DNA from: Hericium rajendrae
Taxonomy: Eukaryota > Basidiomycota > Agaricomycetes > Russulales > Hericiaceae
Length of the DNA stretch: 64,000 nt
Direction: 5' to 3'
NCBI GenBank assembly: GCA_033439255.1
Contig: CM065878.1
Location: 4,278,001-4,342,000, forward strand
Both the position numbers and the translations under genes were made by a program. Positions 22,858-45,510 of the stretch are shown here, piece by piece; within the stretch, counting starts at the first letter, position 1; each line of letters opens with the position of its first letter. The notes under the pieces are model-generated. The model made no database searches. It was given only the letters and a program-made list of their open reading frames with translations, and was not told the DNA's origin.

Positions 22858-24200
22858 CTACATCCTCTCATCTTCTCTTTTCGTCTTTCTCTTCAACTCA
22901 ATGGCAGGGAGGGTTTTGTAGGGGCTAGAGGGGCCTTAGATGAGTCTACACGATCTTTATCTTACTTGCTGTACTAATCTTCGAAGTTTTGCTTGTTATC
23001 GAGCGAGTGAGACTCGTTTTCCGCCGATCGACAGTTCCCAACTGGCAACAAGCCATCTTACTTTTCGCACACCATCTGCGCTCATTACCATTCTCACTTT
23101 CGATGATAGCTCTCGTGCTCACATTCTCCTTGTCGACATGTCAATCCCGCACCTCAGCCCCATTCTTTACCTCCCGCACACACCCTCGAGAGCGCTCATG
23201 GCTCTGGTATTACACGTGGGAGGCCAGCAACAACAAACCGTCAAGCCCCATTGCTGTAGCAACGCGGCTTGACTACTTCTCATTGATTACTCGCATGGAG
23301 TTACATGCAGAGACTTTCATGCTCTCGCTCATATCCTCATTGCCCGACTGCATGCAGTTGCTTATGCACGATCACATGCCTGGAACAGTATGCATTTCCA
23401 CTCATGTTCCACCAGTGCACGTATGTGCCTCTGACTGGATACCCCATCCCCACGACTACGACTCTGTGTGCAGATGCCCGCGCCGGCCTCAATGCCATGC
23501 TCGGGCCTGCACCACTCAATCTCTGCATGCCCCAAGTTCAAACGTTGGCCGCGCATGCCCTTGCATGCCCGGGACAGTCTCACTCATACTCAAAAGAGCA
23601 CGCACGGTTTTGGCATGGTGCACGTCTTTTCATATAGCTCTATTGTCACCTGCGCTGACCTGAAGCACAATCGTAACACACTCTCTCACCTCGATGTCTC
23701 AATCCCGATGCACCACCCCCTTCTATTACACTTCATAGATATGGCACCGGCCTTGGACTCTATTTTCTCAACCTCCCGGCCCTTGCAACGTGCGCCAGTC
23801 CGCGCGGCTCCCTTGTCTTCGCCCTCGACTGGCTAGACATGGACTGTACGGTGTTGCTGTCATTCAGCATCAAGCTTCCAAGGCAAAGCACAATGACATT
23901 GCTGGGTGCATGTATGAATCGGAATTGTTTTTTGTCAACTCGCTCGAGCAGTTATACGTGCGCACAAGGATCGATAAGGTGAGTTCGCTGCGCAATCGCT
24001 TGGCAGATATTTCAGCGGGATGTATGCGGTATGCTACCCAAAGCACATGAACAAGCTCATGCTGCTCTCACTCGTGGGCATATCGTGCAATGCGAGCAAC
24101 TTCATGCAGCCGTCGTGCGAGGCCATCAACGAGCAGTCCAAGGGTGCAGAGACAGCATCTCACCTGTTCGTATTTTGGCTCTGGTGGTAGTTTGAAGGGG
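22858..24200 (+). repeat. Z-family repeat, copy Z5
   Basis: It shares the order seen in other Z copies: a CAACTCAATGGCAGGG start, a TTAGATGAGTC donor-like site (here mutated from GT), TACTAATC branch-like site at 22972, a weak wobble-rich hairpin (TTTGCTTG, loop TTAT, CGAGCGAG) at 22986-23005 and an ATCGACAG acceptor near 23033. An X-box-like palindrome ATTGCTGTAGCAAC sits at 23250-23263. The downstream part is C-rich and has overlapping open frames in several phases, so none is credible as a gene. Confidence 0.6.
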
Positions 24201-24399
24201 TCGGTGTGATTCAATAGATATATAGACTAGAAAATATATGTACACGCCGTGCACGCACCATCCGCAAAGACATTGAGGTCATGCATGTGCATGTTGATTT
24301 GAAGGGAGCAGCACCATTTAATATAGATCAAACTATGGATGTAGTGTACATAGTATAGTACTAATATACTATTGATAAATAATTACTGGACTGCGAGTT

Positions 24400-24562
24400 G
24401 CTTGTGGGTTACTCACAGGTTGATGGAGTTCAGTAAAAGCTTGATCTGGTTCTGGACGGGTGTCAGCCACCGGGTGATCCAGATCTGCAGGTCAGGAACC
24501 TGCATGTAAATGATAGGTATACCTGTATTGATAGACGGGTGACTCTGACTTGTGTTGAACCC
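24400..24562. repeat. CAGGTC-rich repeat block, inverted
   Basis: It ends ACTTGTGTTGAACCCTAG, the inverse of the AGGGTTCGACACAAGT end of other blocks. It contains GATCCAGATCTGCAGGTCAGG. Confidence 0.6.
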
Positions 24563-24599
24563 TAGAAAGAGCACTGGCTTTGCATGTGTGATATTAAAT

Positions 24600-24762
24600 A
24601 AAGTGTAAAAAAAGTCAGGCTTGAACTGGAATTGAACCTGCAAACTCGTCAGATCGAAGATGTGTGATTATATAAGCCAACTGCCTAATGGGCATCGTCA
24701 TCGTTTTGGTGTCGTTTTCACTATGAAAAGGCGGTATAGAGTAAACGATTCTAAGGAATCGT
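24600..24762 (-). mobile_element. SINE-like repeat with tRNA-like head (X-family end)
   Basis: Read on the minus strand it starts ACGATTCCTTAGAATCGT, then a tRNA-like segment: an A-box-like TTAGGCAGTTGG, and the B-box GGTTCAATTCC (plus-strand 24636-24646 region). The same head occurs at 27541 (plus), 39692 (minus) and 48765 (minus). The anticodon stem is degenerate, so it is not a working tRNA. Confidence 0.6.
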
Positions 24763-24789
24763 AAATATATAAATATTATAGATTCAATA

Positions 24790-27540
24790 ATCTTATATCT
24801 TAAAGCCATAGAAATCAGAAATTAAAAAATATTATATTTTTCATATAATTTTATTACAAAACATTACACAGACTACAAAGACTACTAGATAACTACAAAA
24901 GATAATGAACTTACAATAACTATAAAAAGCAAAAATATAAATAAGAAAAGAAGACATTAGTATAGAAAGATAATATATAAACTTACCAAACTCACAAAAA
25001 AAAAGTGAAACCCTACAAAACAATTCAAGACATCAGTGTAAGAAGATATAACAAAAACTTACCTAGTAAGTATACAAGAATACTATATCAAGTAACAAAG
25101 GTATTAGCATAAGACATAATAGACAAAGAATAAAAGCTTACCTTAATAAATATAGCAACAAGCAAGCAAGTGACAACAATGACGAGCAAAGGAATGACGA
25201 CAACGAGCAAAGGAACGATGACAACGAGCGAGGATCAATGACGATGAAGTGTCGACGTGGCAGGGGATGGTGGGAGTTAGAGAGCAAGAGGTAATGCACA
25301 TCGTACATGCCTTATATACGAATCCTGGCCGGAGCTGGGATTTGTGGTTGCCGGGCGTTTGCCGAGTGCTTCCGAGCATCGCATCAGAGACTGGGCGCCA
25401 GACTCAACTAACTGGATTTTGCTACCCAGGGATGCAACATATAGTAAATAGTTAGAAGTCTCATTAGTTTCGGTTGTATGTACAATAGATAGCTTCCTTT
25501 TTTTTCATCTAATTTATATGATTTTATTAGATTTGCAGGGGCTCGAAAGCCAGAGCTTCGCTCGTTCGGTGACTGAAGCACTGAACTCACATCGAGAATT
25601 CTTACTTCACCTCCTCCCTCACTCTCTCTGTCCCTCTCCGCCTTTCCTCGCTCGCCTCGCTTCATTTCCTCTCTCTATCGATAGTCAAGATGGATTGGGC
25701 GGGAATTTAGGAAGCTGAGGGAGGCTGTAGGTGAGTTAAAAAACCTGTTTTTTGGTGTTCATTCGTACTTATGCAGAGTGTCGCTCATTTTCGAGCGACA
25801 CTCGTTCTTTCGACATCCGGATGCCCCCATCCTCATCGCGTGCCATCGTCCCCACCTACACTTTCCCATCGCCCTTTCGCCGTTCCACTGCCACTGCCGC
25901 CGCCCTCTGATACCCGCGCGCGCAACCTCAACACCCTGCACTCAAATCACCACGTCACCAGCACTCCGATCCCATCCTTTTGCGCGCACGGCCACGGATG
26001 ATGCATGGACGACGTTCCGCACTGTCTGTGCCATCGACGATGTGCGCGCACTCGCCACGTCACTGTCCACCACGTGTTGTAGAGTCCCGTTGCCATGGCA
26101 ATGGGACTCGGGACGTCCTCCTTTTGCTCTCGCCATGCCTCAACATCCCCGCCATGTCACCAGCATGTCGAACGGCTGCAGTGCCAAGACCTCATGTTCT
26201 GTGTGCTCATCGCACTCGCACAATGCCCCCTCACCTCGGACGCACTCATGCACAACACCCTGGCACGATGCCCGCCTGCGCATGCAATGTCCCACGCTCA
26301 GATGCCTCACACGCGGGCCTTGCACCTCGCGCCCCATGCCGCTCACTTGCTTGCGGCCAATGTGCTTCGCGCACAGGCTTGCCGCATCGTGCACGAGCCC
26401 ATGGCAGTGCAACGACGTTCTCCGCACCCCCACGCCTCCGGCACAGGTCTGCTGCATTGCGCATGGGTCTGCCATATTGCGCACGGCCTCCGCATCACGC
26501 ACGGCCTGTTATGTTGCATATGGCCCTGCATCTCGTGCATGGAGCATGCTGCAGCCTGAATTCATGCATGCACGGGCCTGCTGCACCCACCGCATCCCTT
26601 GTGCTGCCCCACGAGTCTCGCGCGGGCTTCGCACGGCCTATCGACGCCTCACACACGCCGGCGCCCTGCCGCTCGTCTTCAGCGCCATTGCCTCCGGCGC
26701 GTGGGCCTGTCACATCATGCACAGGCCCTCTCACACCGCGTGCTCTGCACGCCTGTCTCCCATACGCCCATCTCCTGCACATCCGTCTCTCGCGCCTCGC
26801 GCCTTGCGTACAAGCCCGTCACTAGCCCCCACCTTTGCCGCTCCACACCTGGTCTCCGTGCCTCGCACGTGTACACCATTGCCCCAAGCGTGGTGCCTCG
26901 TCTTGCCGCGCTTTGTCCCCTCCCCCATGTGCGAGGTGCACGGGCCTGCCCAGCTTGGAGCATGACTGTTGCACCATCGTGGTCGCATTGCGCCTCGTGC
27001 ACATGGTGCCTTTGTTGCATTGCACTAGTGCATTTGTGTTTGCACGCAGCCCCACCTATGCATGCCGTGTGGGCATGTGGTACTCATATTTGTAGTATAC
27101 TTATCTGTAGTAGTAATTATGTCGAATATAATAAATTTTGACTTTGAATATTTTGCACTGAAGTACCTAGTTGACTTGACATAGTACTAATAGTAATAAT
27201 AGTACCTATAGCTCACCTTATAAGTATGATAGTGCTATGTATTTCAAACTGCTGGCTATGGAAGCTATGGTAACACTATATAACTGACACTAGTAGCTAT
27301 GGAAGCTATGGAAGCTCTCATAGCTCTATATAGCTAGATAAGCAAACTTTATAGCCTTGATAGCTCAGTGATAGCATCCATAATATAACCTGCAGCTATA
27401 TATAATTCAGTTTTCTCAGATGCTATAGGCATCACAGCAAACTTATGTATGCTTCTACTACCTTATACATTTCCTGTTAGCCTGTGCACCTTCTATTGAT
27501 TCGTATCCCTTGCTGCTAGCACCAAAGGCAGAATTTAATT
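24790..27540. repeat. Z-family repeat, copy Z1
   Basis: The left part (24790-25320) is A-rich and on the minus strand has TATATAAGG (25311-25320) followed by leftward GTAAG donor-like sites. The middle has GTAGGTGAGTT (about 25730), GTACTTATGC, and a perfect 11-bp hairpin (GAGTGTCGCTC, loop ATTTTC) at 25776-25803. An RFX X-box-like palindrome GTTGCCATGGCAAT is at 26089-26102. From 25800 to 27070 the sequence is GC-rich and made of loosely repeated units like GCACGGGCCTGC. A long open frame there (25778-26965) overlaps long frames in other phases and is best seen as a composition effect. 27070-27540 is AT-rich with TAGCTA tracts. Confidence 0.65.
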
Positions 27541-29912
27541 ACGATTCCTTAGAATCGTTTACTCTATACCGCCTTTTCATAGTGAAAACGACACCAAAAC
27601 GATGACTATGCCCATTAGGCAGTTGGCTTATATAATCACATATCTTCAATCTAACGAGTTTGCAGGTTCAACTCCAGCTCTAGCCAAACTTTGTTGATTT
27701 AATGTAACTTGATCAGTTCACCTGTTCTCAAATGCATCTGGATCTGCTCATTTATTGCCTTCTGACAGTATTTTTTGCATCCTGATCTGTGCAGAACTCA
27801 TAGAATACAATGAATTTCTACATTTTCCCTCTATGACACTTGAACTTGAGCTAACTCAGTCCATTCTTCACCGATTTACTCGTTCTCAAATGCGTCTAAA
27901 TCTACTCACTTATAGCTTTGCTACCATACTTCATGCATCCAAATCGGTTAAGAACTCACAGAATGCAAAGTGTTTCTTTTTTTCCTCTTCTAAAATGCTT
28001 GAACCCTAGCTAACTAGGCCAATTCTCAACCAATGTACTCGTTCTAAAATGCATCAGAATCTACTTATTGATAGCTTTCTGACGGTACCTTAGGCGTTAG
28101 GATCGGTGCAAAACTCACAGAATGCGAATTGTTTCTGCATTTTCCCCCTAGAATGCTTGAACTCCAGCTAACTTAATCAGTACTCAGCCGATTCACTTGT
28201 TCTCAAATGCATCCTAATATATCAGAAAGCCGGTCTCCAACACAATTTACTGCTCACAGAAAGATACAGCCACTAAAATGATACACAGCAAACAAATGTA
28301 CATACTGTTTATTGATAAAATGAGCAAAAAATGCAATTTATCGGTAGCAGTGGGTCCTGAGACTCGGTCATGTGATCTTACAAGACCTTGTGCGGCCGAA
28401 CAAGGTCTTAGCGCCTGCTTACATAAGCATAAGTCGGTTAGAGAGCCAATACACTGTATACAGTGATTGCTTTATAGCTCTGCAACAAAGCAATCAATCG
28501 ACAAACGGTAAATTGTGTTCATATATCTTGGATTACATCTTTCCAACCCAATTTAAAATACAAAAATCGGATCACTGTAAGCAGAGATATTCTTCGATTT
28601 ATATGCTATATTAGCAAAACAGTATTGTCTCCTATCTCAACAACCAATGGTGCTATGATGTTGTACACTGTATTGTTAGAAAGCTATTGTAAATCTGAGT
28701 TCAACAAGCCCTCATACATCATGATTGATGCAGTATCAGCAGAGCTATAAAGCAAACAGTCTGCCACATCATCATAGACATATAGTCCAATAGGTCAGCA
28801 TTTTGTCATGCTATTTTGTTGTTTGTGGCACTATTCTAGAGCTATTGTAAATCTGATTCTAACAAGCTTTAACTCATTCTGATTGATGTGGTATTGAGAG
28901 CTCTATGGCCTGATCTCTATGCCACATCATCAGCAGAAAGTTGGTGATGGCCCCACACCATCATTGGACACCTCAGCCGCAACTCGCTGCAGATGGGAAC
29001 TGGGCGTGTCCAAGCCTTGTAGTTAGTGTGCACTACTGGTAGTGTCACACTGACTTCAAAGCTATCTGAAGAAAAGAAGAGAGAGCAGAGAGCGCAACAT
29101 CAACTACTGCTGACATAAGCTAAGCACAGCCACCAGACCTTGTGCGGCCGAACAAGGTCTGCTATTGATCATGTGATTGGCCATTAGCTTTGTTCAACAA
29201 TACAATGTTTGACATTGATCATATATTCAATCTTGAATCTTGTTTGATTAGACATACAACTAGACTACTATTATAATTGTAGATATTACAAGTATTTATA
29301 ATATAAGCATATATAATAGTGTATATCATATATTGGGCTGAGTATAATAAGATATGACAAGTGTGTACTGTATTACATACCAGATTATATATATAATAAG
29401 GTACTAAGATATATAACATAGCAAAAAATATAGAGTTATCAGAGGTAGGAGCTGAACTACTCATGATTAGATTAGATTAAATAGTGTTTTTTTATATGCT
29501 TTAGGGTTCGACACAAGTCAAAGTCACCTGTAGGTCAACACGGGTATACCCATAAAATTGACCTGCAGGTATCTAACTTGTAGATCTAGATCACCTGGTG
29601 GCTGAGACCTGTACAAATCCAGATCAAGGTTGTGCTCAAACCCATTGACCTGTGAGTGACCTGTGGGTAACCTGCTATCCAAACTTTATTTTGGTTAACA
29701 TATTATATTGCAAAGTTCAAATCTATATGTCATGATCCCTAACTAACTACATACTATATGTCATCTGCCAACACTAACTTACAGCTCCAATCACATATGC
29801 ACATTATCACTATATCTTGTCATACCCATGAAGTGTATAAAGTCTACAAGCAAGGCATGGATTCAAAAGGCTGCATGCAACATACTTGTAGCATCGACAT
29901 GGGCATGTGCAT
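27541..29912 (+). repeat. X-family repeat, left arm of the giant inverted repeat
   Basis: It starts ACGATTCCTTAGAATCGT, then a tRNA-like segment (27617-27690; B-box GGTTCAACTCC), then three 158-bp tandem units (27724, 27882, 28041, ending 28199), two GACCTTGTGCGG palindromes (28382-28409, 29135-29160) and a CAGGTC block (29503-29690). It is inversely repeated at 46195-48765 with roughly 96% identity where I compared it by eye (28278-28560). A 62-codon frame at 28278 occurs in both copies but shows no sign of selection. Confidence 0.8.
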
Positions 29913-30106
29913 CATCAGGAAACTCTTCACTTTCCTGGCTTTACTGTTGTAGGTCTGATGTCACTGTTTGAGGCCTGATGTTACTGTTTTCAGACTGTTT
30001 TCAGACACAAGTCAGATCCAGATGTCTGAAAACAGTAATATCAGGTCCAAAACAGTAACATCAGACCTACAACAGTAAAGCCAGGAAAGTGAGAAGTTTC
30101 CTGATG
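29913..30106. mobile_element. Short TCTGA-family MITE (194 bp)
   Basis: Ends CATCAGGAAACTCTTCAC and the near-inverse, flanked by AT on both sides (29911-29912, 30107-30108). It is almost a full palindrome. The matching point in the right arm (near 42100) has no MITE. Confidence 0.85.
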
Positions 30107-30108
30107 AT

Positions 30109-31056
30109 GTCGGTGGGGCAGCTTTAAGTATGTGTGTGCACATGGGCTGGCACATGTGCAAGGGGAGCATATGTGGGTGCTGGTGTACTGGCATAGCTGT
30201 GGGCATGCACACACAAATGACATCACCAGCTTGGATGGAAATTGGGAATGAGACCGGGGAGGGTGCATTTTGATTGTTGAATAGCACTGATGGCATATAA
30301 AACTTGCCTCACATTGGGCTTCTGTCAGACGAATGATATGACAGCATGCATAGTGGCATGTGTGATGTCCATGGGCATGAATGCACACATGTAGTTTGAG
30401 CAATGGACTATGAGATGGTGGGGGCATGTAGTCAAAAATGTGTATGCTGGTAGGGCATGTATTGGTAGATGCACACTGTCTCAGACATGCAAGGATATGC
30501 AAAGCTGTTTGTAGACAACTGCGCATTGTTGAGGCATGCTAGGCACTGCTCGGATGATCAGCAAAAAGATGTCAAGCCTTGCTGTTGTAGCAACAATGCT
30601 GTAGCAACAAGACCTGACAGGCATTGTGGGCCTTGCAGTTGCAGCGCTAGACTAGCACTGTGCATGCTCTTACTGTTGTGAGTGGAAATTAAATCTCTGG
30701 TACACATGAGTGCTGGTTGTCGAAGATGGGTAAGGGCTGGTTGGCTGGTTGACCTGTTGATGAGGACGATGGAAGAAGCACAGATAGTACACGAAATATG
30801 GTGGATGATGTCAAAAAATGGTGGGATGTCATGAAACCCATCAAACATCATGAAACCTGTGGAAGAACAGTGAAAAATGAGAGCCTTGCCTGTTATCGAG
30901 TGAGACTCCTGAGATCAGTACAGTACAATGAAATAAAAGGCTTTTGGACTCACTTAGAAGCCTCTTGAATCTCCATAACACCCATCCTGCCATTGAATTG
31001 AGGAGATATGGTAAAAAGGGGAGGATTAAGATGAAGAAACAAAGAGAAGGGCATCG
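30109..31056 (-). repeat. Z-family repeat, copy Z4 left (inverted)
   Basis: The inverse of 39815-42127. On the minus strand it has ATGGCAGGATGGG (about 30993), CTAAGTGAGTCC donor, TGTACTGATC branch-like site and a partly decayed hairpin at 30881-30908 (plus-strand arms GAGCCTTGCCTG and CGAGTGAGACTC). It ends next to TA at 31057-31058. Confidence 0.75.
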
Positions 31057-31058
31057 TA

Positions 31059-33517
31059 AAAGTGAGACACAACTTTCAGACCAACTGACTTGCAAGTGAC
31101 CTGTGATGTCACAGATACCTGACCTGCAGCTCCAGATCACCCAGTGGTGCAAATCTGCATGGATCCAGGTCAGCACCTTGGACAGATAGAATACCTGCGA
31201 GTTCAAATCTAGGTCACCCACGAGTGCACTTGTGTTGAACCCTAATATACTTAAAGTGATGTTTGCACAATTGATGCTCTCAGGCATTTGTATAAGTTTT
31301 TTGTTACTCTAAACCTTCATGCTAATCGACAGGCAATTTTACCAGAAAGTAGTTGCCATATTTGGTCACTAATTTCTGCCAGTATACAAAATATAGTTTG
31401 AAGGTAAGAATTCAATTTTTATAGTATTTTATGCATGTAAAATAGAAAAATACTGACTAGATTATACATTGAAGAGATATAAGCTCTATTTAAAAAAAAA
31501 AACTGGTATGATTTATGTTATTTTTTGTAAAAGTCAGAAAAAAAAATCCAAATATAGAAATTAAATTCTGTCTTTGGTGCTAGCAGCAATGTATACAAAT
31601 CAATAGAAGGTGCACAGACTAACAGGAAATGTATGAGGTAGTAGAAGCATACATAAGTTTGTTGTGATGCTCATAGGTTGATACATGTGTAAGCTAATCA
31701 ACAAAAGTATGCATAGGTCAAAAAATGTGAGCCAAGAGTGCATATATGAGTTGGTGTAGTGTGTATCATCTGAAAAATTGAAATTTCATATAGCCCAGTA
31801 TTGATCTATATGTTTTATCATAGCACTATAAGGTCTATCACTATTTATGCCACCACAGTTCTCAACTATGTAAGACTATGAGGCCTATCATAGCTATCAT
31901 AACAGTAGTTGGACACTATATAGTGCTACATGTTTCTGAAAGATAGCTGTAGTTGTTGTACAAATCATATAAATTCAAAGGCTTGCTCTGATCTATATGA
32001 TCTCTACTATGATCCTTGCTATTAGTACTGTCTCAGATCAATCAGATACAAGAGATATAAAGCTAAAATCAATTATATTTCATACAGCTACTAGTACAAT
32101 CAAGTATATTACAAGTTCAAACAGTGCACACATGCACAATGGTACACATCATGTACAGGTAGAGCTATGTGCAGGCATGTGTGTACTGGTAAGGCACAAC
32201 AAAAGTACATATGTGCATAAGGCACTAGGTTCATGCACAAGGCATGATAAGTGTCATAGCTGTGCAGGAGGTCCAGTGGCCATGCTCACCAATGTTAAGC
32301 TGTAGTGGGCCTATATATAAGATGCAATGTGCAGTGAGGATGTGTGAGATATTGAGAGCCATGCATGAGGCATAGAGGGTGAGCATAAGGCATACAGGCC
32401 CATATGTAAGGCTGCTACTAGCTTGTACAGGAGATCAACAGGGTGTGGTGGCCATGCACAGGGTGCTGCAAGCATGTGCAGAGTGTCAAGATGCTGTGGG
32501 CCTGTACATGAAGTACAGTAAGCATCTATAGGATGGTGGCTTGTATGCAAGATGTAGTGTAGCATGATAAGCATGCATAAGGCACTAAGCCTATGCATGG
32601 CTTGGTATGTCTGTGTATGAGGCATGAGGCACAAGGTACAGGCAGGTGACACACCTGCACATAGCAACACACAATGCATGTATATAGTTGTGCTGGCTGA
32701 CATGCTCACATTCAGCTGTAGTCATCTCTAAGCTGTCACTGGCCCATCCACAAGGTACATCGAGATGTGGTAGACCAGCATAGGGTGTGACCAGTGAACA
32801 TGAGGCATAGTGAGCTGGCATGAGGTGTAGCAGGCATGCATGAGGCACTGGCCCCAGCACAATGCTACATGCCAAGTATAAGACATGAGGTACAGGCCTG
32901 CATGCAAGATGTCAGTATACCTGTACATGACCATATATGACGGTAATTTATATACCTTCATTGATGATAAAAAAAAGGAATCGTTTTGCCATGCACAGCA
33001 TTGGCCCTCTTCCACCAAGTTTCTATATTTGGATTTTGTTTCTGACTTTTACAAAAAATAACATAAATCATACCAGTTTTTTTTTAATAGAGCTTATATC
33101 TCTTCAATGTATGATCTAATCAGTATTTTTCTATTTTACATGCATAAAATACTATTAAAATTGAATTCTCACCTTCAAACCATATTTTGTATACTGGCAG
33201 AAATTAGTGACCAAATATGGCAACTACTTTCTGGTAAAATTGCCTGTCAATTAGCATGAAGGTCCAGAGTAACAAAAAACTTATACAAATGCATGAGAGC
33301 ATCAATTGTGCAAACATCACTTTAAGTATATTAGAGTTCAACACAAGTGCACTCGTGGGTGACCTGGATCTGAACTCACAGGTATTCTATCTGTCCAAGG
33401 TGCTGACCTGGATCTATGCAGGTTTGCACCACTGGGTGATCTGGAGCTGAAGGTCAGGTATCTGTGACATCACAGGTCACCTGCAGGTCAGTTAGTCTTG
33501 AAGTTGTGTCTCACTTT
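31059..33517. mobile_element. Foldback-type repeat with arms of about 500 bp (centre of the giant inverted repeat)
   Basis: The left arm 31059-31557 (starting AAAGTGAGACACAACTT) is the inverse of 33022-33517, with TA on both outer sides. Each arm holds a CAGGTC block and an AT-rich piece. The 1.46-kb centre (31558-33021) resembles, in inverse orientation, the AT-rich tail and the GC-rich minisatellite of Z1 and Z2, but with CG mostly replaced by TG or CA. Confidence 0.75.
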
Positions 33518-34125
33518 TACATCAGGAACCTTGACAACTTTCTGATTGACCTGCAGTGTCTGACAAAATCTGATGCAAGTTAAATCAGATGCATCAGACA
33601 GTCTCAGAGAGCTATTAGTTGGTATCAGACAGATCAGATCACTCTCAGACACTATCAGATTATTGGACCTCAAGCTGCTGTCAGAGATAAATCAGAATGC
33701 TCTCAGATTTGTAAAAATTTTAGATATCAGAAATTCTATTATGATATACAATTAGAGATGAATGACTGCTATATCTAACAATAGGTGTTGACTCTCAAAT
33801 ATACTTGGGGAAAGTGGGCCGATGCTTCACACGGCAAGACGATTCCTTTTTTTTATTAGTTACATTTAACTTGGAAGAAGAGGGGTGATGCTTCACATAA
33901 CAAGATGATTTTTTTCAATTGTTAGTTATATTTAGAATAGTGCATAAATGAGTAAAGTCTTACTGGTCAGATTGATTATAAATTGTGGCTCAACTACATA
34001 GCAGCTAGTATAGCACTATGAAACTAGGCATAGCATTGGCTAGCAGCTATGTAGATTTTACATTTTTGAGATGGCTGCACATCTATGCTCATATATGCTG
34101 CTACACTGTTAAGTTATATATACTA

Positions 34126-34535
34126 CATCAGGAACCTTGACAATTTTCTGATGGGTCTGACAGTGTCTGACAGTACTTGTGCAAGTCAAATCAAATGCAT
34201 CAGACAGTATTAGATAGCTGTTAGTTAAATCAGACAGCATCAGACTCTATCAGACACTATCAGCTAAATGGACATGCAGATGCTATAGAGATTGCTCAGA
34301 ATGTTCTTAGATTTGTAAAAATATCAAATATTAGAAATATTATTATGATATATAATTAGAGATGGATAACTCCTATAGTGAACAATAGGTGTCCACTCTT
34401 GAATGTATAAGCTAAATCAGATGTGATCATTTGAAAAGTGGCTACAGACAGATCAGACTCTATGAGCTCTATTAGATACTGTCAGACACTGTTAGACACT
34501 GCAGGTCAATCAGAAAATTGTCAAGATTCCTGATG
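34126..34535. mobile_element. TCTGA-family MITE (410 bp) nested in the 6.29-kb element
   Basis: Ends CATCAGGAACCTTGACAAT and inverse, with TA at 34124-34125 and 34536-34537. The core is rich in CAGACA/TCAGA. Confidence 0.85.
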
Positions 34536-35159
34536 TATATAACACTATTATCAGAGTCATAGCATCATTGGTTGAAAGTTTAGTACAAAGAAAACTCATT
34601 TTTTGGACATACAAAATTGACTTTTTTAAACATTTAATTCAATGTTTTTGAGTGTAAAAGTTGATTCTACATGTGATATATCCATCTGAGAAATTTAACA
34701 GTGGTATATAGCATTATGTAACCTATATAGCTCTGATAGGGCCATAGCAGTCTCCTTTTCTACATAGCACTCTATAGCAGTAAGACAATTTATATAGAGC
34801 TATCATAGCACTCTATAGCAGTAAGACAATCTATACAGGGCTATCATAGCTATCATGGGGTAAGGTAGTAACTATCATAGTCATCATAGTTATCTGTTAT
34901 AAGATGATAACTATTATAACTGCCATAACATATGATGATTATTATAGCTATATTAGCTAAGTGGTATATCCTTAGTATCATATTATATGCAGCTAGTTAG
35001 ACTATCATTGATTCTATATCATCTTTACCAACAATGTTACTCAAAAGATGCTAATTATAAGACATCTCAGATATTCAAAACATCGAAAATTTGAAAGCAT
35101 TATATTTCAAGTAATATTTGATTATAATACATCTACAAATATTACTAGCAAATCTATGA

Positions 35160-37180
35160 TACACTATAAGATATGGTAAGACTGTAAGATAAAGACAAGA
35201 TAAGATAAAAGATAAGATAAAGATAAAACTTACTGTCAAAATAAGAAAAAGCGAAAATGATCTACAAAAGAAGTCAACAAATCAGTATCACAAAATAAAA
35301 TAAAAACATAAGGCTTACCTAAGGAAATAAAAGCGAAAATAAAGTCTATGAAGAACATTAGGGTTAAAAACAATCAAACAAAATAACAACATACCAAAGA
35401 AAACAAAAATGCGAAAATGCAAAGGCTATAGAAAAAAACATAAGGTTAGATACAATAAAACAAGAATACAACATATCAAACATAAGAAGATTAAAGCAAA
35501 AGGGAAGAGAGTGACGAGAGATGAGAGATGGTGGTGGTAGGGAAGAGAGAGAGCAAGCATGTCGTGCACGCCTTATATAGACGTGGTGAGCACCAAATGT
35601 GAGTGACGCAACTCGGCCTGGGTGCTGCCGGAATGCTGCATCAGAGGCTAAGGCGGCAGACATCATTAAGTTTGTGTTGCTGCCCAGTAGCCTGTAGTAC
35701 AGTAGCTAGGTAGTTAGCTCATGGAATCAAATTATATTGGTAAATTGTACACAACGTCTTTTTCTTGGATTTGTGGCTATTTTATTTTATTTGCTAAGCT
35801 CGAGACATTCGAACTCGCGTGTGTTTGGTGGCTGAACGTGTGTCGAAGTTCGAATGTTCAACTCGAGCTTCAACCACCACTACTTACCTCTCCCTCTCCT
35901 CCTCCTTTCTGTCTGTCCTCTCTCATCAAACTGAACACCGAAGGAGGGTAGCGGGATGCTGAGGGCCCCGCAGGTGAGTAAAAAAAACCTCTATACATTT
36001 TTTTTCATACTAACTCAGAGATTATTGCTCATTTGAGCGATACTCTCGCCACCTTTCGCCCTTGCAGGCCTCCCTTGCCACCATTCCTCGCTGCCACCCC
36101 TCCCTTGTCGACTCCCCGTCTCCCGACATCACCCCCACAAACCACCAGATGATGCACGCCCCTTCGCGCATGGGCCAGGCATGCCAGTGCACGCATGGCT
36201 GGCGGATGGCCACAGCCATGCGTGGGCATGTCAGCCAGCACACGCACACATGCATGTCGTGCGTGGCCATGCGAGGTGTGCTCGCACGCAGGCCCCGAGG
36301 CCTCTACGCAGGCCTCTGTGTCGCACACGAGCCTGATGCCTCGCACATGCCTGCCATGCCCTGCCGCACCCGCTGCACCCCGCATACGAGCCAGCACCTG
36401 GAGGATGCCTGCCGTACCTCATGTATAGGCCCACAGCAGTCCAGCACCCCGCGCACACTTCCTGCGCCTCGTCCACACTCCCGTGCCTTGCCCACACCCT
36501 CTACACTCTCACCTATGCCCCCCGTGCCCTGCTCATGCCCCCCGGGCCTCGCTCATGTCCCCCATGCCTTGCTCACATCCCCCACATCTCGCTCACATCC
36601 TCCACGCCTCGCTCACGCCTCCCACAGCATCCCCAGGGCCCACGACGCCTGTCGTATCCTGCAGATGCCCACCATATCCCACGGATGCCTGCCACACCTC
36701 GCGGACAATGCCACACCACGTACAATGCTGCCGCGCCCGCAATATCTCACGCACGAGCTGCCAGCGGAAGCCCTGTGCCCCATGCAACGTCTGGTGCACC
36801 TTGTGCATGGCCACCGGACCCTGACGCGTCGCCCATGCCTGCCGCACTTTGTGCACAGGCCTACCACACCCCGGTGACTCGAGCACGCCTGCCGCCGTGC
36901 CCTGCCGTGCCTCGCGCATACCCCGCGTCTTGCATATGAGCCCGCTGCAGCCCGACGCCAGTGCGCATGGCCCCGGCGCTTCCCGTGCCTCGCGCACAGA
37001 CCTAGCACCTCACGGATAAGCCAACGCCTCGTGCACGGGCCCAGCGCCTCGTGGATAGGCCTGCTGTGCCACACGCACGACTCCTGTGCCCTGCATGCCC
37101 GCTACGCCCCGTGCGCTTGAGCGCGCTTGTCTGTGTGGCATGCATTGTTCATATTAATAGTGTAATTGATTGTACTACTA
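35160..37180. repeat. Z-family repeat, copy Z2
   Basis: The left half is A-rich with minus-strand GTAAG-like donors and a TATATAAGG on the minus strand (35571-35580), as in Z1. Then come GCAGGTGAGTAA (about 35970), ATACTAACTC (36008), a 13-bp hairpin with one mismatch (arms GAGATTATTGCTC and GAGCGATACTCTC, 36018-36047) and CCTTGCAG (36067). 36068-37140 is GC-rich with degenerate repeats. The overlapping long frames in several phases are a composition effect. Confidence 0.65.
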
Positions 37181-37559
37181 GCCACATTAAATATAATTGA
37201 TTTTTTTTGTACTTAATTGACTTCTAAGGTAGTAATAATAGTATTCATATCTCACTTACTGTAGGGATCATAAGGACCATAGGGATCATAGCAAGCCAGT
37301 GAATTTATATAGCAGCTATAGCTGCCTCTTAGAAATATATAGCACTATATAGTGTCTAACTACTGCTATATAAGCTATGATAGGCCTCATAGCCTTATAT
37401 AGTTGAGAAAGATAGCTACATAGATGATGACAGACCTAATAGCATTATGATAGGACATATAAATGAACACTAGACTATATAAAATTTTAATTTCTCAGAT
37501 GTCAATACACATAAGTTTTACTTGTCAAGCATTAAACACATTTATTATAAATTAAAACA

Positions 37560-39692
37560 CAAGAAAAAACAAAATGGTCAGAGGTGGAATTGAACCTGAG
37601 CAAACACCTTAACAGCCGTTAAGGCATTGCTTACATAAGCAAAACTCGGTTTTGAAGTGCAACATCTCCCTGCTAGCCTTTTCTTCAGACAGTTGTTGAA
37701 GCCAGTGGTCCCTCTACCAGTGGCTGTAACACTTTCAGACTACTTCTCCTCCCCTCGATGTGGGTGGGTGGAGAGGATGTCTACCCGATGGCTGTAGTGG
37801 TCATCCTGTATGTATCTCACTTGCTGATGTGACAGACTAATTTCATTTTAGCTCTATCAATACTGCACCAATGAAGGTGAATAAGGGCTCATTGAAAGCA
37901 GATTTGTAGCTGCTTTTAGATAATATCTTGTGAGTCATAATAGCACCACTGGTAACCAAGATATAGGGGTATGACTGATTGATGATGTGGCAGATATACT
38001 GGATCATATCTTCACTTCCTGTGATCTGATTTTTGCATTCTAAATTGTTTTGCAACACTGCTATATAGTATGTTCCAACCTAGATTACTGCTTGTTGATT
38101 GATTCATTTGTTGCAGAGCTATGAGACAGTCATTGTTTACAGTAGGCTAACTCTTGGATGCATGTTTTGCTTATGTAAGCAGATGCTAATACTTCATTCA
38201 TCTACATAAGGTCCTGTGGGATCACATCACTGAGAGTCTCAGAACCCAGTGCTACTGATAAATTGCATTTTTGGCTCATTTAAGTAATAAACAGTATCTA
38301 ACTTTGTTTGCTGTATATCTCTTTACTGGCTTTGTCTTTCCATAAGCAGTAAACTGTATTGAAGACGGGTTTTCTGATAGATCCAGACAAACTTGAGAAC
38401 AAGTGAATCGGCAGAGAACTGACCAGTTTAGCTAGAATTCAAACATTTTAGGGGGGAAACAAAGAAATGCTTTGCATTCTGCGAGTTCTTATCCAATCCA
38501 GATGCATGAAATATGGCTGGAAAGCTATAAATAAGTGGATCTATATGCACTTGAGAACGAGTAAATCGGAGGAGAATTGACTAAGTTGGCTCAAGTTCAA
38601 ATATTGTAGGGGGAAAATGTAGGAATTCATTTCACTCTGTGAGTTCTGCATGGATCAGGATGCAAAAAATACAATCAGAAAGCGATAAATGAGGAGATCC
38701 AGATACATTTGAGAACATGTGAATTGGTTGAGAACTGATCAAGTTACATTAAATCAAGTGTAATTAAAAGTCCGGCCAGACCTGGAGTTGAACCTGCAAC
38801 CTCTAATGAGTGTTAAGAGATAGGTCACATGGTGTGCGCCTTAACGGCCATTAAGGCGCACACCATGTGACCTACCTCTTAATGGCTGTTAACAGGTAGA
38901 TCACATAATTATCTAACTTTGTTTGCTGTATATCTTTTTACTGGCTCTATTGTTTTGTAAATAGTAACTTGTTTTGAAGACAGGCTTCCTAATAGATCCA
39001 GATGCACTTGAGAATGAGTAAATCGGTGGAGAATTGACCAAGTTAGCTAGGATTCAAACATTTTAGGGGGGAAAACAAAGAAATGCTTCGCATTCTGCGA
39101 GTTCTTGACCACTCTAGACGCATGAGGTATGGCTAGAAAGCGATAAATAAGTAGATTTAGATGCACTTGAGAACGAGTAAATCGGTGGAGAATTGGCCAA
39201 GTTAGCTAAGATTCAAACATTTTAAAGGGGAAACCAAAGAAATGCTTCGCATTCTGCGAGTTCTTAACCGATCCAGACGCACAAAGAATGGCTGGAAAGC
39301 TATAAATGAGTAGATTAGATGCACTTGAGAACGAGTAAATCGGTTGAGAATTGACCAAGGTAGCTTAAGTTCAAATATTGTAGGGGGAAATGTAGGAACT
39401 CATTGCACTCTGTGAGTTCTGCACAGATCAGGATGCAAAAAATACTACCAGAAAGCGATAAATGAGTAGATCCAGATGCATTTGAGAACAGGTGAATTGG
39501 TTGAGAACTGATCAAGTTACATTAAATCAAATGTAATTAAAAGTCTGGCCAGACCTGGAGTTGAACCTGCAAACTCATCAGATCAGTGATCTTGCAATTA
39601 GATAAGCTGACTGCCAAATGGGGGTAGTGGTCGTTTGGGTGTCGTTTTCGATAGGAAAACCCGGTATAGAGTAAACGATTCTAAGGAATCGT
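37560..39692 (-). repeat. Two X-type repeat pieces with tRNA-like heads
   Basis: The first piece (about 37560-38800) contains a tRNA-like stretch (37570-37650, minus; B-box GGTTCAATTCC) and X-like sequence. The second (about 38900-39692) has tandem units of about 158 bp and ends in the ACGATTCCTTAGAATCGT head at 39692 (minus orientation). Confidence 0.6.
38813..38882. other. 70-nt near-perfect hairpin
   Basis: Arms of 32 bases (38813-38844 and 38851-38882) pair with one mismatch around the spacer CGGCCA. The arm contains GGTCACATGGTGTGCGCC. It lies just after a B-box-like GGTTCAACTCC (minus strand). Confidence 0.85.
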
Positions 39693-39814
39693 AATAAGCT
39701 TCATCAAATATGATCATTTGAAAAGTAGCTTCAGATAAATCAGACTCTGCAGTAGCTGCAGATAGGGTTAAAAACTGTCAGACTCATCAGAAAATTGTCA
39801 AGGTTCCTGATGTA

Positions 39815-42127
39815 TGATGCCCTCCTCTTTGTTTCTTCATCTTAATCCTCCCCTTTTCACCATATCTCCTCAATTCAATGGCAGGATGGGTGTTATGGAG
39901 ATTCAAGAGGCTTCTAAGTGAGTCCAAAAGCCTTTTATTTCATTGTACTGTACTGATCTCAGGAGTCTCGCTTGATAACAAGCGAGGCTCTCATTTTTCA
40001 CTGTTCTTCGACAGGTTTCATGATGTTCGATGGGTTTCACGACGTCCCACCATTTTTCGACATCATCCACCATATCTCATGCACCATCTGCACTTCTCCC
40101 ATCATCCTCATCAACAGGTCAACTGGCCAACCGGCCTTCACCCATCTTTGACAACCAGCACTCATGTGCACCAGAGATTTAATTCCCACTCACAATGGTA
40201 AGAGCATGCACAGTGCCAGTCTAGCGCTGCAACTGCAAGGCCCACAATGCCTATCAGGTCTTGTTGCTACAGCATTGTTGCTACAACAGCAAGGCTTGAC
40301 ATCTTTTTGCTGATCATCTGAGCAGTGCCTAGCATGCCTTGACAATGTGCAGTTTGTCAACGGAATTAAACGACATGTCTATATTGGGACGACGATGACA
40401 CCGGTATGTACTGGTAAATAAGGTTTCGTGACTACGGCAAAGCCCGATGGCTACCGAGATTACCAAATCTAACACTCCTACATAATGAGGCAACCATCGG
40501 CAGAAAGTGACCGTTAAATGAGGCGAACAAAAGGTTCATCAACCTGTGCAGACTGAGCAAACTCCTCACCATTGCTCTCCACAGAATCTGCCTCTGCAAA
40601 CCTGACATGAGACTGACTGGATGGACAGACCCTTGCCATATGACCCTTCCCACCACAAGTGTAGCAGGTAACGTCCTTGCTAGAGGACCCTGTAAACCGG
40701 GTCTGCCTGGCAACCAGGGCTTGGTCGGATACTGAGCGCCTGTCCTGGGAACGGCTGAGCTGAGACTCCAGGCCGGAGATACGTGACATGACACTGCTGA
40801 GAGTGAGATCGGAAAAAGGGATTCCATCGAGGGCAGTGACAATTGACTGATACTCCTCAGGGAGACCATCGGTGATGACGAGGATGATGTCGATGTCCTG
40901 GACAGGAACAGGGGAATGGGATAGCTCAAGGGCTGTGGAGCGGACACGACTAGTCCAATCCATGGTGGACTCAGACTCGAGCTTGGACATGCTGAAGAAG
41001 CGACGTCGAAGGAAGAGGATGTGATTGACAGACCCAGAGCGATGGATATCCTCCAAAGTCTTCCACATAAGCCTTGGATCCTCCAAACCCACAATGAAAG
41101 GCATCTGAGAGGACTCAATACTCAGCGTGATCTTCGAGCGTGCTTGCTGCCTCTTCTTCTCCCTTGTCTGAACTGCCTTCACACCTCTGGGCACCAGCCC
41201 TGACACCTCTGGCCCAACAACCTCCCACAGATCTGCTGCAATGAGAAGTGCCTCCATGACCGTCCTCCACTGCACATAGTTGCCCTCCTTCAGCTTGTCA
41301 ACATGTTCGGTGGACTGCATGATGGTGATGTTGAAAAGAATGACTAGAAAGGATAGGGAATAGAGAGAAGGACTGCTGAATAACGAGTGATCAGACCGAA
41401 CACAGTTGATGCATGATTACCGGTCGTTGCAAGCAATTGGTTCGAGGATGAAGCACAAGGAATGGAGCAGGTGTCAAAACAAGCCTGATGTAGACCGCAG
41501 AATATGAGCAAGAATGACGAGAGTTAGGAACGGGCAGGGCCCATAACCTGTTGAAAACAGCGAGCGCAGCGACAACGGAATAAAATGACATGTCTATATT
41601 GGGATGACGATGACACCGGTATGTACTGGTAAATAAGGTTTCGTGACTACGGCAAAGCCCGATGGCTGCCAAGATTACCAAATCTAACACAGTTGTCTGC
41701 AAACAGCTTTGCATATCCTTGCATGTCTGAGACAGTGTGCATCTACCAATACATGCCCTGCCAGCATACATATTTTTGACTGCATGCCCCTACCATCTCA
41801 TAGTCCATTGCTCAAACTACATGTGTGCATTTGTGCCCATGGACATCACACACACCACTATGCATGCTGTCATGTCATTTGTCTGGCAGAAGCCCAATGT
41901 GAGGCAAGTTTTATATGCCATCAGTGCTATTCAACAACCAAAATGCATTCTCCCCAGTCTCATTCCCAATTCCCATCCAAGCTGGTGATGTCATTTGTGT
42001 GTGCATGCCCACAGCTATGCCAGTACATCAGCACCCACATATGCTCTCCTCGCACATGTGTCAGTCTATGTGCACACACATACTCAAAGCTGTCCCACTG
42101 ACATGTGCATGCTCATATCGATACCAC
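39815..42127 (+). repeat. Z-family repeat, copy Z4 right, split by a Copia-type element
   Basis: The inverse of 30109-31056 (plus the MITE-free junction). ATGGCAGGATGGG at 39879, CTAAGTGAGTCC donor, TGTACTGATC branch-like site (about 39951), a fully paired 12-bp hairpin (GAGTCTCGCTTG, loop ATAA) at 39963-39990 and a TTCGACAG acceptor at about 40014. The homologous sequence stops at 40354 and resumes at 41690. Confidence 0.8.
40355..41689 (-). mobile_element. Short gag-only Copia-type element with two LTRs
   Basis: LTRs 41549-41689 (5', 141 bp) and 40355-40474 (3', 120 bp) start TGTTAGATTTGG on the minus strand and are flanked by CAGTT on both sides (40350-40354 and 41690-41694). The single gene region (about 41320-40514) encodes a Copia gag with a UBN2-like N-terminus (EGNYVQWRTVMEALL) and a zinc knuckle CYTCGGKGHMARVC. 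No protease, integrase or RT is present. The gag part looks whole. It resembles the non-autonomous gag-only LTR elements known from plants. It inserted after the inverted repeat formed and looks young. Confidence 0.85.
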
Positions 42128-43381
42128 AACATCAGGAAATGAGGAATCTTCTGACTAGTCTGACTGTCTGACTTTTGTCTGAGAGTTCTGAACAGGTCCA
42201 TTTGTCTGACTCACATATGAATAAAATAATGTGTAGATCATTTTGTAAGATCAGAAGAATATCAGATATAAACAGACCTATCAGATTCTTAAAAGTCTAT
42301 CAGATAAAGGTAATTTTGTCAGACATTCAATTAAAGTCAGATTATTGCTACTTTTCAGATAGAGTCAGGTAGGTCTCTATCATCCAGATGTTCTCAGACA
42401 TATCAGATTCTTACACATCTGTCAGATGAAGGTTATTTTGTCAGGCATTAAATAAATGTCAGACCATTGCTACTTTTCAGATAGAGTCAGGTAGGTCCCT
42501 ATTGTCCAGATGTTTTCAGACATGTCAGATTGTTATGTATCTGTCAGATGAAGATTATTTTGCCAGACAGTTAATAAATATCAGACCATTGCTACTTTTT
42601 AGATGAAGTTAGGTAGGTCTCTATCGTTCAGATGTTCTCAGACATATCAGATTCTTACACATCTGTCAGATGAAGATCATCTTATCAGACATTCAATAAA
42701 TGTCAGACCATTGCTACTTTTCAGACAAAGTCAGGTAGGTCTCTATCATTCAGATTTTTTCAGACATGTCAGAATTTTAAAAATCTGTCAGATGAAGATT
42801 ATTTTGTTAGACATTCAATAAATGTCAGACAATTGTTACTTTTCAGATAGAGTCAGATAGGTCTCTATTATTCAGATACTTTTAGATATGCCAGACCTTT
42901 GAACTTTGATCAGACATTATTAAGTCTTTCAGAGATTGAATTAAAGTCAAATAGCTGCTACTTTTCAATTAAGTCAAATAAGTCCTTATCATTTAGGTTC
43001 TTTTAAACATATAAGACTTATGAACTTGTTTCAGACATTATTGATCTTGTCAGACATTAAATGAGAGTTAGACAGTAGCTATTTATCAGACAAAGTCAGA
43101 TAAGCCTTCAGACACATCAGACATCTAAAATTTCATCAGATATTTACAGTTGTCTCAGACTTAAAGGTCAGAAAGTGAACCTGAGCACCACAGAAATCAA
43201 ATCCAAGCTTAAATCTGGATCTGAATGGCTGCTATAAAATCAGAACTGGCACCGGGATCAAATGGAAAATCAGACTTTGATTTTAAATTGGACTTGAGCT
43301 CAATCTGAACTTAGGCTGAGTACTCACAACAGCTTTGCAGAGTCTAGATTTAACATGCATAAATTGACAACTTGACATGAT

Positions 43382-44165
43382 CACTGAAGGCCCACGTGCC
43401 TGTAGGACCCGAAACATTCTCGTTTCGAACCCCACAGCATGCGCGGGCAGGTAACTACGAAAACCGAAGGTCCGCGCATCTGTAGGACCCGAAACGTTAT
43501 CGTTTCGGGCCCTACAGCCTGCGCGGGTAGGTAGCTACGAAAGCCGAAGGTCTGCGCATCTGTAGGACCCGAAACGTTCTTGTTTTCGGCCCTACAGCCT
43601 GCGCGGGGAGGTAACTACGAAAATCGAAGGCCCGCACATCTGTAGGGCCCGAAACGATGATGTTTCGGGCCCCACAGCTTGCGCGGGCAGGTAGATACGA
43701 AAATAGAAGGCCCACGTATCTGTAGGGCCCGAAACGATGATGTTTCGGGCCCCACAGCTTGCGCGGGCAGGTAGACACCATAGTCGAATGTCCATGCATC
43801 TGTAGGGCCCGAAACGTGAACGTTTCGGGCCCCACAGCTTGCGTGGGCAGGTAGATACAAAAATAGAATGCCCACGCATCTATAGGGCCCGAAACGAAAA
43901 CGTTTCGGACCCCACACCTGTGCGGGCACGTAGATACGATAATTGAAGGCCCGCGCAGCTGTAGGGCCTGAAACGAAAACGTTTCGGGCACCACAGGTGC
44001 TACGGGCAGGTAGATACAAAATTCGGAGGCCCGCGCAGCTGTAGGGCCCAAAACGAAAACGTTTCGGGCACCCCAGCCTGCGCGGGCAGGGAAATACGAT
44101 AACAAAAGGCCCACGTACCTGTGGGGCCCGAAATGCACAGATTTCGGACCCAGTAGCCTGCGCGG
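43382..44165. repeat. 80-bp satellite, about 10 units, each with a hairpin
   Basis: Unit starts (TGTAGGRCCC) fall at 43401, 43481, 43561, 43641, 43721, 43801, then near 43880, 43960, 44040 and 44120. Each unit contains arms like GGGCCCGAAACG and its inverse with a 4-6 base loop. At 43801 the paired arms reach 15 of 16. Loops vary (TGAA, AAAA, ATGAT-like). Because 80 is not a multiple of three, the long minus-strand frames over it shift between units and are not protein genes. Confidence 0.9.
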
Positions 44166-44199
44166 GGAGGAGGGCGCGAGACACGCGACGGACGGGGTG

Positions 44200-45510
44200 G
44201 GGGGTTTGGTGCAAACGAGAAAACGGAGAGTACTGCTCGTTATCGAGCAGTACTCCCGAGATTAGCACGAAAGACGATGAAATACTAAATTTAGGACTCA
44301 CCTTAGAGCCATCTAGCCTCCAGTAAGCCCGTCCGGCCTTCTAACGCGTCCTTCCGGCCTTCGAATTGATGTCAGAGAGTGCGAAAATAGGGAGTACTGC
44401 TCGAAAACGAGCAGTACTCCCCGAGTTAGTACAATGAACATATACAATAATAGACCTAGCGACTTACCTAGGCCTCGACTAAGCCCCTCAGGCCTTCAGG
44501 GGATCAGAAAATGAAGAAAGAATGGAGGGGAGGAGAGACGAAAGACAGCAAGTACGACTCTAACGTTTCAACGCACGTTGAGCTTCCGGCAAGCCAACGG
44601 CCCGGTCGGCAATCCCCGACCGGCAATCCCCGGCAACGCGCGTCGACTTCAACGTTCAACAGTTCAACGTTTCAACGTTCAACTCCCTTACTGAGACTCG
44701 TAGTCTCGTAGATCTCTCGTCCCACCCGTCTTCTTCCTCTTCACACATGCCGCCTCACATCGTTCGACGTTTAGGAGGGTTGTAGCCAGGTTGAGGGGCT
44801 TAGGTAAGTAGAACAGTCCTCAATTCTTGTCGTGTTATGCTAACAAAACGAGCATCACTCGAGTGATGCTCGTTGATCCTTCCCTTTGATGCCCAGATCA
44901 CCCCCAGCACCACCCTATATTCCCCCTACGACACCCCGCAACCATGCTTATGAACCCGCTCCCATCCCACTCCTTCGACAACCTCGCCGGCAACATCGTC
45001 AAGTCTCGTTGCCGTGGCAACGAGGCTCGGCTGCACGTTATTCAATGCGCCTCGCCCCGCCTCCTGCGCATTCCCGCGTGGCTTCAACAGCCCGCGGTCA
45101 CTGTCCACGACTCGAGCGAGCTCTCAAAAGCTCGCATGCATCTGCTCCATCGCTTTCTGCCTCCGCGCATGCCCCGAGTGCGTGTGCACCACGTCCGCAA
45201 GCCTCCACCCCTCTGCTTCCCTCAACCCCACCCGCGGCGTCAGCGTCGACATCGATCCTCGTTGCTGTGGCAACGAAGCTCGATAAACATCGTGCGCTGT
45301 CCAGTCGCTGTCGAACGGATTCGTGGCAGTCTCTAGGGTAACAAACAATTGTAAGTTAATCTTGTTAATCTTGGTTGTTCTCATGTACTAACAAAGAGAG
45401 CATTGCTCGTTATCGAGTGATGCCTTCTTTCTTTGTACTTAGACTCTCGATGCCCTGTAGTCTCGTGACAGCACAGTAGGTCCTTCGCAGGTGAGTATGG
45501 TATTCTTTTC
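44200..45510. repeat. Z-type hairpin-intron modules (four) in the 4.06-kb element
   Basis: Minus-strand modules: CTAAGGTGAGTCC with GTGCTAATCTC and a 12-bp hairpin (44228-44255); CTAGGTAAGTCG with TGTACTAACTC and a perfect 14-bp hairpin (44390-44421, loop AAAA). Plus-strand modules: CTTAGGTAAGTAG, TATGCTAACAA, a 28-base palindrome (44847-44874) and GATGCCCAG (about 44895); and TGTACTAACAA, a 10-bp hairpin with two wobbles (45400-45423) and TACTTAG (about 45441). X-box-like palindromes lie at 45008-45021 and 45261-45274. Confidence 0.75.

Follow-up and report, generated by a model that had tools for sequence, protein, structure and literature searches.

Does a hairpin that recurs behind intron-like signals in a repeat-rich part of the Hericium rajendrae genome reflect selection on a spliced RNA, or is it kept by the replication of the DNA that carries it? 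The stretch analysed, here called the window, comprises 64,000 nucleotides (nt) of contig CM065878.1 (C1:4278001-4342000), the middle of which is a mosaic of nested repeats; the genome scans covered 46.8 megabases (Mb) in 19 contigs. The stem is a real, genome-wide, covarying hairpin within an intron-like module of mobile elements, and template switching during DNA replication is a serious rival explanation for its covariation. A preliminary description, made from the letters of the window alone, had listed nine such hairpins behind a donor and a branch site. All nine were found where it had placed them and in that order, with one donor mutated, as follows.

22940..23034, plus strand: module copy 1, mutated donor ATGAGT at 22940-22945, branch-like TACTAAT at 22972-22978, weak stem at 22989-23016, first AG at 23033-23034.
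25731..25803, plus strand: module copy 2, donor GTGAGT at 25731-25736, branch-like TACTTAT at 25766-25772, stem at 25776-25803, the next 156 nt free of AG.
30857..30953, minus strand: module copy 3, donor at 30953-30948, branch-like TACTGAT at 30920-30914, degenerate stem at 30908-30881, first AG at 30858-30857.
35974..36067, plus strand: module copy 4, donor GTGAGT at 35974-35979, branch site TACTAAC at 36008-36014, stem at 36018-36047, first AG at 36066-36067.
39918..40014, plus strand: module copy 5, donor at 39918-39923, branch-like TACTGAT at 39951-39957, stem at 39963-39990, first AG at 40013-40014.
44228..44301, minus strand: module copy 6, donor at 44301-44296, branch site TGCTAAT at 44267-44261, stem at 44255-44228, first AG 68 nt past the stem.
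44390..44467, minus strand: module copy 7, in tandem with and upstream of copy 6, donor at 44467-44462, branch site TACTAAC at 44431-44425, stem at 44421-44390, first AG (AAG) 29 nt past the stem.
44804..44896, plus strand: module copy 8, divergent to copies 6 and 7, donor at 44804-44809, branch site TGCTAAC at 44838-44844, stem at 44847-44874, first AG at 44895-44896.
45351..45442, plus strand: module copy 9, donor at 45351-45356, branch site TACTAAC at 45386-45392, stem at 45400-45423, first AG at 45441-45442.

Read in the orientation of the module, which is reversed for the copies at 30881, 44228 and 44390, all nine copies present a donor, about 40 nt, a branch-like site and a stem. The donor is GTRAGT, 43-49 nt upstream of the stem, in eight of the nine (ATGAGT in the copy at 22989), and a CTNAY-type branch site lies 2-10 nt ahead of the stem in every copy. 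Six modules were folded and compared with shuffled sequences. Four window copies (36018, 39963, 44847 and 45400) and the genome copy L050 gave z values of -2.7 to -4.0, while the weak and degenerate stem of the copy at 22989 folded no better than its shuffles (z -0.49). A covariance model (R1), of the kind proposed in the preliminary description, was built from seven window copies with two kept aside as a test, and it recovers both: the copy at 36018 at 46.6 bits (E 1.2e-8) and the copy at 22989 at 32.5 bits (E 1.8e-5). The nine copies are not independent, since a single repeat family includes those at 30881 and 39963 (93% alike).

The intron-like order extends far beyond what could be seen from the window. 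The stem pattern GAGTNNNGCTCGNNNNCGAGCNNNACTC, with up to two mismatches, occurs at 337 genome sites per strand (the pattern is palindromic), against one site for the reversed-pattern control. Twenty zero-mismatch sites were sampled, mostly outside repeat clusters and regardless of the branch site; all 20 gave full-length R1 matches with a branch-like site in the same position each time, and 18 carry GTRAGT. The two others are L043, with GTGCGT, and L054, the donor of which was apparently cut by the end of another element. Among the 37 modules examined, nine in the window and 28 elsewhere in the genome, GTRAGT, the canonical donor of a U2-type intron, stands 43-49 nt upstream of the stem in 32, and a branch-like CTNAY about 40 nt from the donor is present in all (29 unselected for it, eight picked by a branch-anchored pattern). 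Such a pattern, with the stem interior left free, found 117 genome sites for TACTAAT (control 5) and 76 for TACTGAT (control 2). Fifteen modules can also be aligned upstream of the donor. Introns of one tubulin locus (L066), inspected by eye, have donors GTRAGT or GTGCTT, a loose branch site and an acceptor about 11-15 nt past the branch-like A; beside these, the putative donor of the module looks ordinary and its branch site strong. No known RNA family matched near its gathering score in the three loci scanned (L017, L062 and L064).

Covariation was assessed on 157 strings retrieved with the TACTAAC and TACTAAT patterns, 144 of them hairpin-like and 77 distinct. A filter set at 8 of 12 pairs dropped the stems below that limit and left 69 distinct 28-mers. 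In these 69 stems 96.4% of the cells are paired, compared with 89.6% in shuffles, and 70 cells carry a double change, compared with 20.9; none of 500 shuffles reached 70. The register used was the best of seven, and no slid register comes close. The three outer pairs are uninformative because the search pattern fixed them, and an interior position such as pair 5 is composed of AU 30 times, GC 20 and CG 17. The covariation noted for nine copies in the preliminary description is real and extends far beyond them.

The region past the stem holds a second palindrome, called H2, and in copy 2 an AG-poor tract joins the two.

25804..26079, plus strand: AG-poor tract of copy 2, from one palindrome to the other, with 1 AG and 10 GA.
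26080..26111, plus strand: H2 of copy 2, core GTTGCCATGGCAAT.
23241-23272, 44999-45030 and 45252-45283: further H2 palindromes; in repeat family D13, 30589-30618 and 40271-40300 resemble H2 more weakly.

The preliminary description had the hairpin usually followed by an AG acceptor. This holds for the window, where seven of nine copies have their first AG at 16-29 nt past the stem, and fails for the family: only 3 of the 28 copies elsewhere have an AG within 30 nt of it (median 96), so that a near AG describes the window copies rather than the module at large. One of the 28 has none across the 121 nt read past the stem. A C or T precedes the first AG in 31 of 36 cases. Over 100 nt past the stem, the 28 genome copies contain 19 AG and 62 GA, and the nine window copies 24 and 36. 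In the group with the GAGTGTCGCTC stem and its relatives, the AG-poor tract runs for 247-344 nt from the stem to the second palindrome. Thirteen copies of this group (one near-duplicate dropped; 270 nt used for L042, where no second palindrome was found) hold 17 AG and 106 GA there, with 115.9 expected from composition, while four copies read past H2 hold 70 AG and 72 GA, with 123.9 expected. The difference before and after H2 is significant (Fisher p 4e-10), a value overstated by the relatedness of the copies.

H2 is itself widespread, with CGTTGCCNNGGCAACG at 341 genome sites per strand within one mismatch (control 2). Its flanks covary (22 sequences, 89.4% paired, 23 double-change cells compared with 10.9), and its TTGC..GCAA core is invariant. 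The sequence contains the GTTGCC..GGCAAC core of the RFX X-box, and is identical in its core to the palindromic X-box GTTGCCATGGCAAC quoted for Drosophila (PMC3414849).

With moderate confidence, we propose that noncoding transcription units of several mobile-element families have the module at their 5′ end, and that their first intron bears a stem that shifts the acceptor. Such a unit would begin with a CT-rich start region and a short first exon, a reading that draws on the habits of fungal promoters, and would pass into a spliceosomal intron: its donor is canonical, a branch site like TACTAAY follows about 40 nt on, and an RNA stem of 10-13 base pairs (bp) would usually stand 2-7 nt further. 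The stem itself contains the AGs that a spliceosome would reach first, GAG on the 5′ side and CGAG on the 3′ side; once folded, it would mask both and loop them out, leaving a later AG to serve as acceptor. That AG would lie 11-29 nt past the stem in some copies and 45 to about 320 nt in others, one large group being AG-poor up to the second palindrome. We infer the start region, the exon, their transcription and splicing, and the hiding of the AGs from this layout; a spliced noncoding transcript from the repeat, as suggested in the preliminary description, would go with it.

Several observations weigh against this proposal, both at the acceptor and in the covariation. No AG lies within 30 nt past the stem in 25 of the 28 genome copies; measured against the tubulin introns, a distance of 100-300 nt between branch site and acceptor would be out of the ordinary. 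H2 has at its base an AG that is not conserved (GTAG in 8 of 12, by eye), and AG depletion is weaker in L062/L063, with 6 AG and 10 GA before H2 and 25 and 29-30 after it. The reversed controls are high for the branch-anchored patterns with TACTAAC (64 sites, control 50) and GCTAA (437, control 328). For the stem, pairing without the filter falls to 90.7% across 80 distinct strings, some of them out of register or matched by chance; removing the filter adds 11 strings, for the most part shorter stems that are out of register. Six pairs show a double change, a number that does not stand above the shuffles (5.4). Every p-value is too small because the copies share descent. To these points are added the distinct-event count of mismatches and the loop orientations, described below.

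Selection on the fold in RNA predicts that, on the module strand, G-T mismatches persist longer than A-C ones. In 126 distinct stems pooled (pairs 4-11, 1008 cells) we counted 883 Watson-Crick pairs, 73 G-T, 45 A-C and 7 other, and the excess of G-T over A-C has a one-sided p of 0.006 if the cells are independent. Counted once per class, position and type, as distinct events, the numbers become 29 and 17 (p 0.05). This excess mildly favours RNA, and strand-biased mutation could produce the same. The loops point elsewhere: the four-base loop occurs in both orientations, with GTTATC 13 times and GATAAC 13, GTTCTC 9 and GAGAAC 5, and GTTTTC 24 and GAAAAC 2. Five groups of modules with identical branch-site flank and arm start hold both orientations (AGAA/TTCT, AAAA/TTTT and ATAA/TTAT), and the AGAA and TTCT loops differ at all four positions. 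A permutation of the loop set, which included out-of-register strings, was not significant: the observed 6 of 20 was equalled or exceeded in 412 of 2000 random sets. Paired stems alone have 14 non-palindromic loops, and for 6 of these the reverse complement is present as well.

The alternative that survives best is that the palindrome is kept by replication template switching, by which arms are homogenised and spacers inverted, and that the covariation is a mutational footprint inside a mobile intron. Template switching is recorded to do both (PMC8604942) and can also yield compensatory changes and matching arms without selection (PMC8794818). The loop inversions suggest that this DNA process, able to mimic selection on RNA, took place here, and because of them we no longer take covariation as sufficient proof of such selection. 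The scarcity of mismatches other than G-T and A-C (7 of 1008 cells) agrees with it, as do further near-perfect palindromes with four-base loops at 43480-43991 of the window. On the other hand, it leaves unexplained the constant site just past the branch site and the conserved GAGT and GCTCG parts, the mismatches lean to G-T on the module strand, and the loop permutation gave no significance. As the sole cause, we hold template switching improbable; the matched arms are probably kept by both fold selection and template switching. The preliminary description had read compensatory change as a sign of selection on RNA or single-strand structure, which is only partly supported: the covariation stands and the G-T excess leans the same way, while the inverted loops of the five groups open a second route to it.

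In fungal telomerase RNA the 3′ end is formed by the first splicing step alone. A comparable process in the module would use the donor and branch site, with the second step blocked by the stem and the absent AG, and would free the short exon with its 3′ end at the donor. The conservation of donor, branch site and stem but not of the acceptor, together with the distant first AG (more than 30 nt) in the 25 genome copies, is consistent with it; the near AG kept in seven of nine window copies and a first exon only weakly alike between families (by eye) argue against it, and we consider it unlikely. The short exon was also tried as a spliced leader RNA, a reading dropped because the branch site falls between the donor and the stem. 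That both palindromes are protein-binding DNA sites with an incidental likeness to donor and branch site is very improbable: the match of H2 to the X-box and its 341 sites speak for it, whereas the middle of the first stem varies freely yet stays paired, as at pair 5, and the donor keeps a constant spacing.

The leader-intron reading has a precedent in Saccharomyces cerevisiae, as the preliminary description had noted. In PMC12350175, "downstream stems" between branch point and acceptor are given for 21 of 88 introns, some hiding cryptic acceptors; such stems, as in RPS23B, are proposed to shorten the effective distance as well. A stem of that type has at least 6 bp and lies between branch site and acceptor; the module stem has 12 pairs behind its branch-like site, and its acceptor is putative. 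The yeast stems belong to single host genes, whereas the module stem is one type at hundreds of sites, in noncoding mobile elements where the carrier was read; it also stands close behind the branch site, with the acceptor often distant or not evident. Among human introns, those that have a distant branch point and an AG exclusion zone resemble the module in the AG-poor stretch from the branch site to the next usable AG. They sit at host exons, while the module would be a mobile-element leader, in which a stem adjoins the branch site and a palindrome marks the far end. The AG-poor stretch is what an AG exclusion zone looks like, for which these introns give the human precedent. Introner-like elements are one intron type in many similar copies with a predicted structure. 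The module shares this multiplicity of one structured intron; unlike them, its intron would travel with its own upstream exon-like region inside larger noncoding elements. A literature search, with subscription papers and bioRxiv preprints outside its scope, returned no report of a stem of this type in mobile-element introns.

Stems between branch point and acceptor are known from single yeast genes; here, one genome holds hundreds of natural variants of one stem, with pairing changes, in one context, and the distance to the next AG ranges from 11 to about 320 nt. If transcribed, they would be a ready-made natural experiment on how structure guides acceptor choice. The family also suits the question of how much hairpin covariation is due to selection and how much to template switching, and is a good test case because footprints of both processes occur in it. 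A bolder extension, which we regard as doubtful, treats everything from the start region and short exon, through donor, branch site and stem, to the AG-free tract and the X-box palindrome as one structured leader-intron module, common to unrelated mobile elements of this one fungus and working as a portable splicing device; its stem would block near acceptors, so that splicing would be delayed, sent hundreds of bases away or halted after the first step, and the elements would control their own RNA.

The carriers that were read are dispersed noncoding mobile elements of at least two kinds. Copies 3 and 5 sit in a dispersed repeat, and the 1.6 kilobases (kb) around copy 3 have at least 40 matches longer than 1 kb at 93-100% identity, its own site included. 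The full-length carrier measures about 5.3 kb (12 ten-kilobase stretches). Its left end starts with ACTTGGTG (ACTTGG) in nine of the ten copies read, the tenth (L018) being cut short, and its right end stops at CGTAA in all ten; its terminal hairpin is CGATTC-TAAG-GAATCG. Genome-wide, the end motif occurs at 306 sites (control 0).

24744..24764, plus strand: end of the 5.3 kb carrier, AACGATTCTAAGGAATCGTAA, downstream of copy 1; also at 39674-39694 (plus) and 27539-27559 (minus).

By eye, the flanks of this carrier show no consistent target duplication, with a possible TTATT on both sides of L025 only, and in the one copy checked (L017) the longest open reading frame (ORF) is 148 amino acids, with no Rep/helicase gene. 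The carrier was considered as a Helitron. It resembles the Pleurotus ostreatus Helitrons, as described in PMC4289320, in the short terminal hairpin and the absence of a consistent target duplication, and differs from them in having neither a TC start nor a CTRR end, nor a Rep/helicase ORF in the copy checked. The candidate was rejected: the ends misfit, and Helitron_like_N is not consistently upstream of the 100 ends listed of the 306 (by eye). The stem as a Helitron 3′ hairpin was suggested by L043, with CTAG|T about 10 nt past the stem, and was dropped because no other module has an AG that near. A tie between stems and autonomous Helitrons was likewise rejected, the two near cases (C2:1397089 and C3:179118) being about what a rough estimate gives by chance. 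The genome lists 67 Helitron_like_N matches, several within open frames of about 2000 codons, and autonomous Helitrons appear abundant in it.

The second kind of carrier is about 2.9 kb long and is bounded by the inverted ends CATCTGAGAAA/TTTCTCAGATG; one of four right ends lacks its last four bases. Two families of this kind, L062/L063 and L064/L065, carry the module and resemble each other chiefly at the ends. In a third arrangement, divergent modules lie 325-355 bp apart (44.2-45.5 kb of the window; L003 and L004). All 16 large stretches give an R1 match to the module, as expected because they were fetched for it. The long C-rich ORF past the stem of copy 2 (25778-26965) was rejected as protein-coding: at the DNA level it is 76% identical to L064/L065, with 10 gaps in 347 bases, the main match stops just past H2, the protein-level match is 32%, and the sole Pfam match is below the cut-off (E 0.18).

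Other elements have entered these carriers. A foldback insertion of 200 bp lies at 29910-30109 of the window inside a 5.3 kb element, and 5 of the 40 long matches listed, the window's own included, extend into it, while the others stop at its edge or before. A second copy of the 5.3 kb element contains a 1.3 kb insertion at 40358-41690, flanked by 118-bp direct repeats (96%), which looks like a small terminal-repeat retroelement. The CATCTGAG element has ends within or just upstream of other modules, at the donor of L054 and near the start region in the flank of L064 (oriented 4788-4890), and inside the 5.3 kb element in L018, hinting at preferred insertion at modules and at this element.

On the minus strand of the AT-rich part upstream of the module (24780-25160 of the window; L064, oriented 2250-2600), more intron-like units of the form GTAAG...ACTAAT...TATAG were seen by eye, and transcription from the module region may be divergent. 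Adjoining the divergent module cluster of the window, at 43344-44250, is an 80-bp tandem repeat, the unit of which has a palindrome of 11-17 bp around GGGCCCGAAACG with short loops that vary.

The proteins encoded in the window include F-box, gypsy-type and copia-type reverse transcriptase and APH-like proteins, and short introns are present; together these point to a basidiomycete. A hairpin at 38811-38884 has near-perfect 34-bp arms and a six-base loop. Dense TCTGA/TCAGA short repeats occur at 45871-46120 and elsewhere, for example as a 37-bp tandem unit at 45944-46054.

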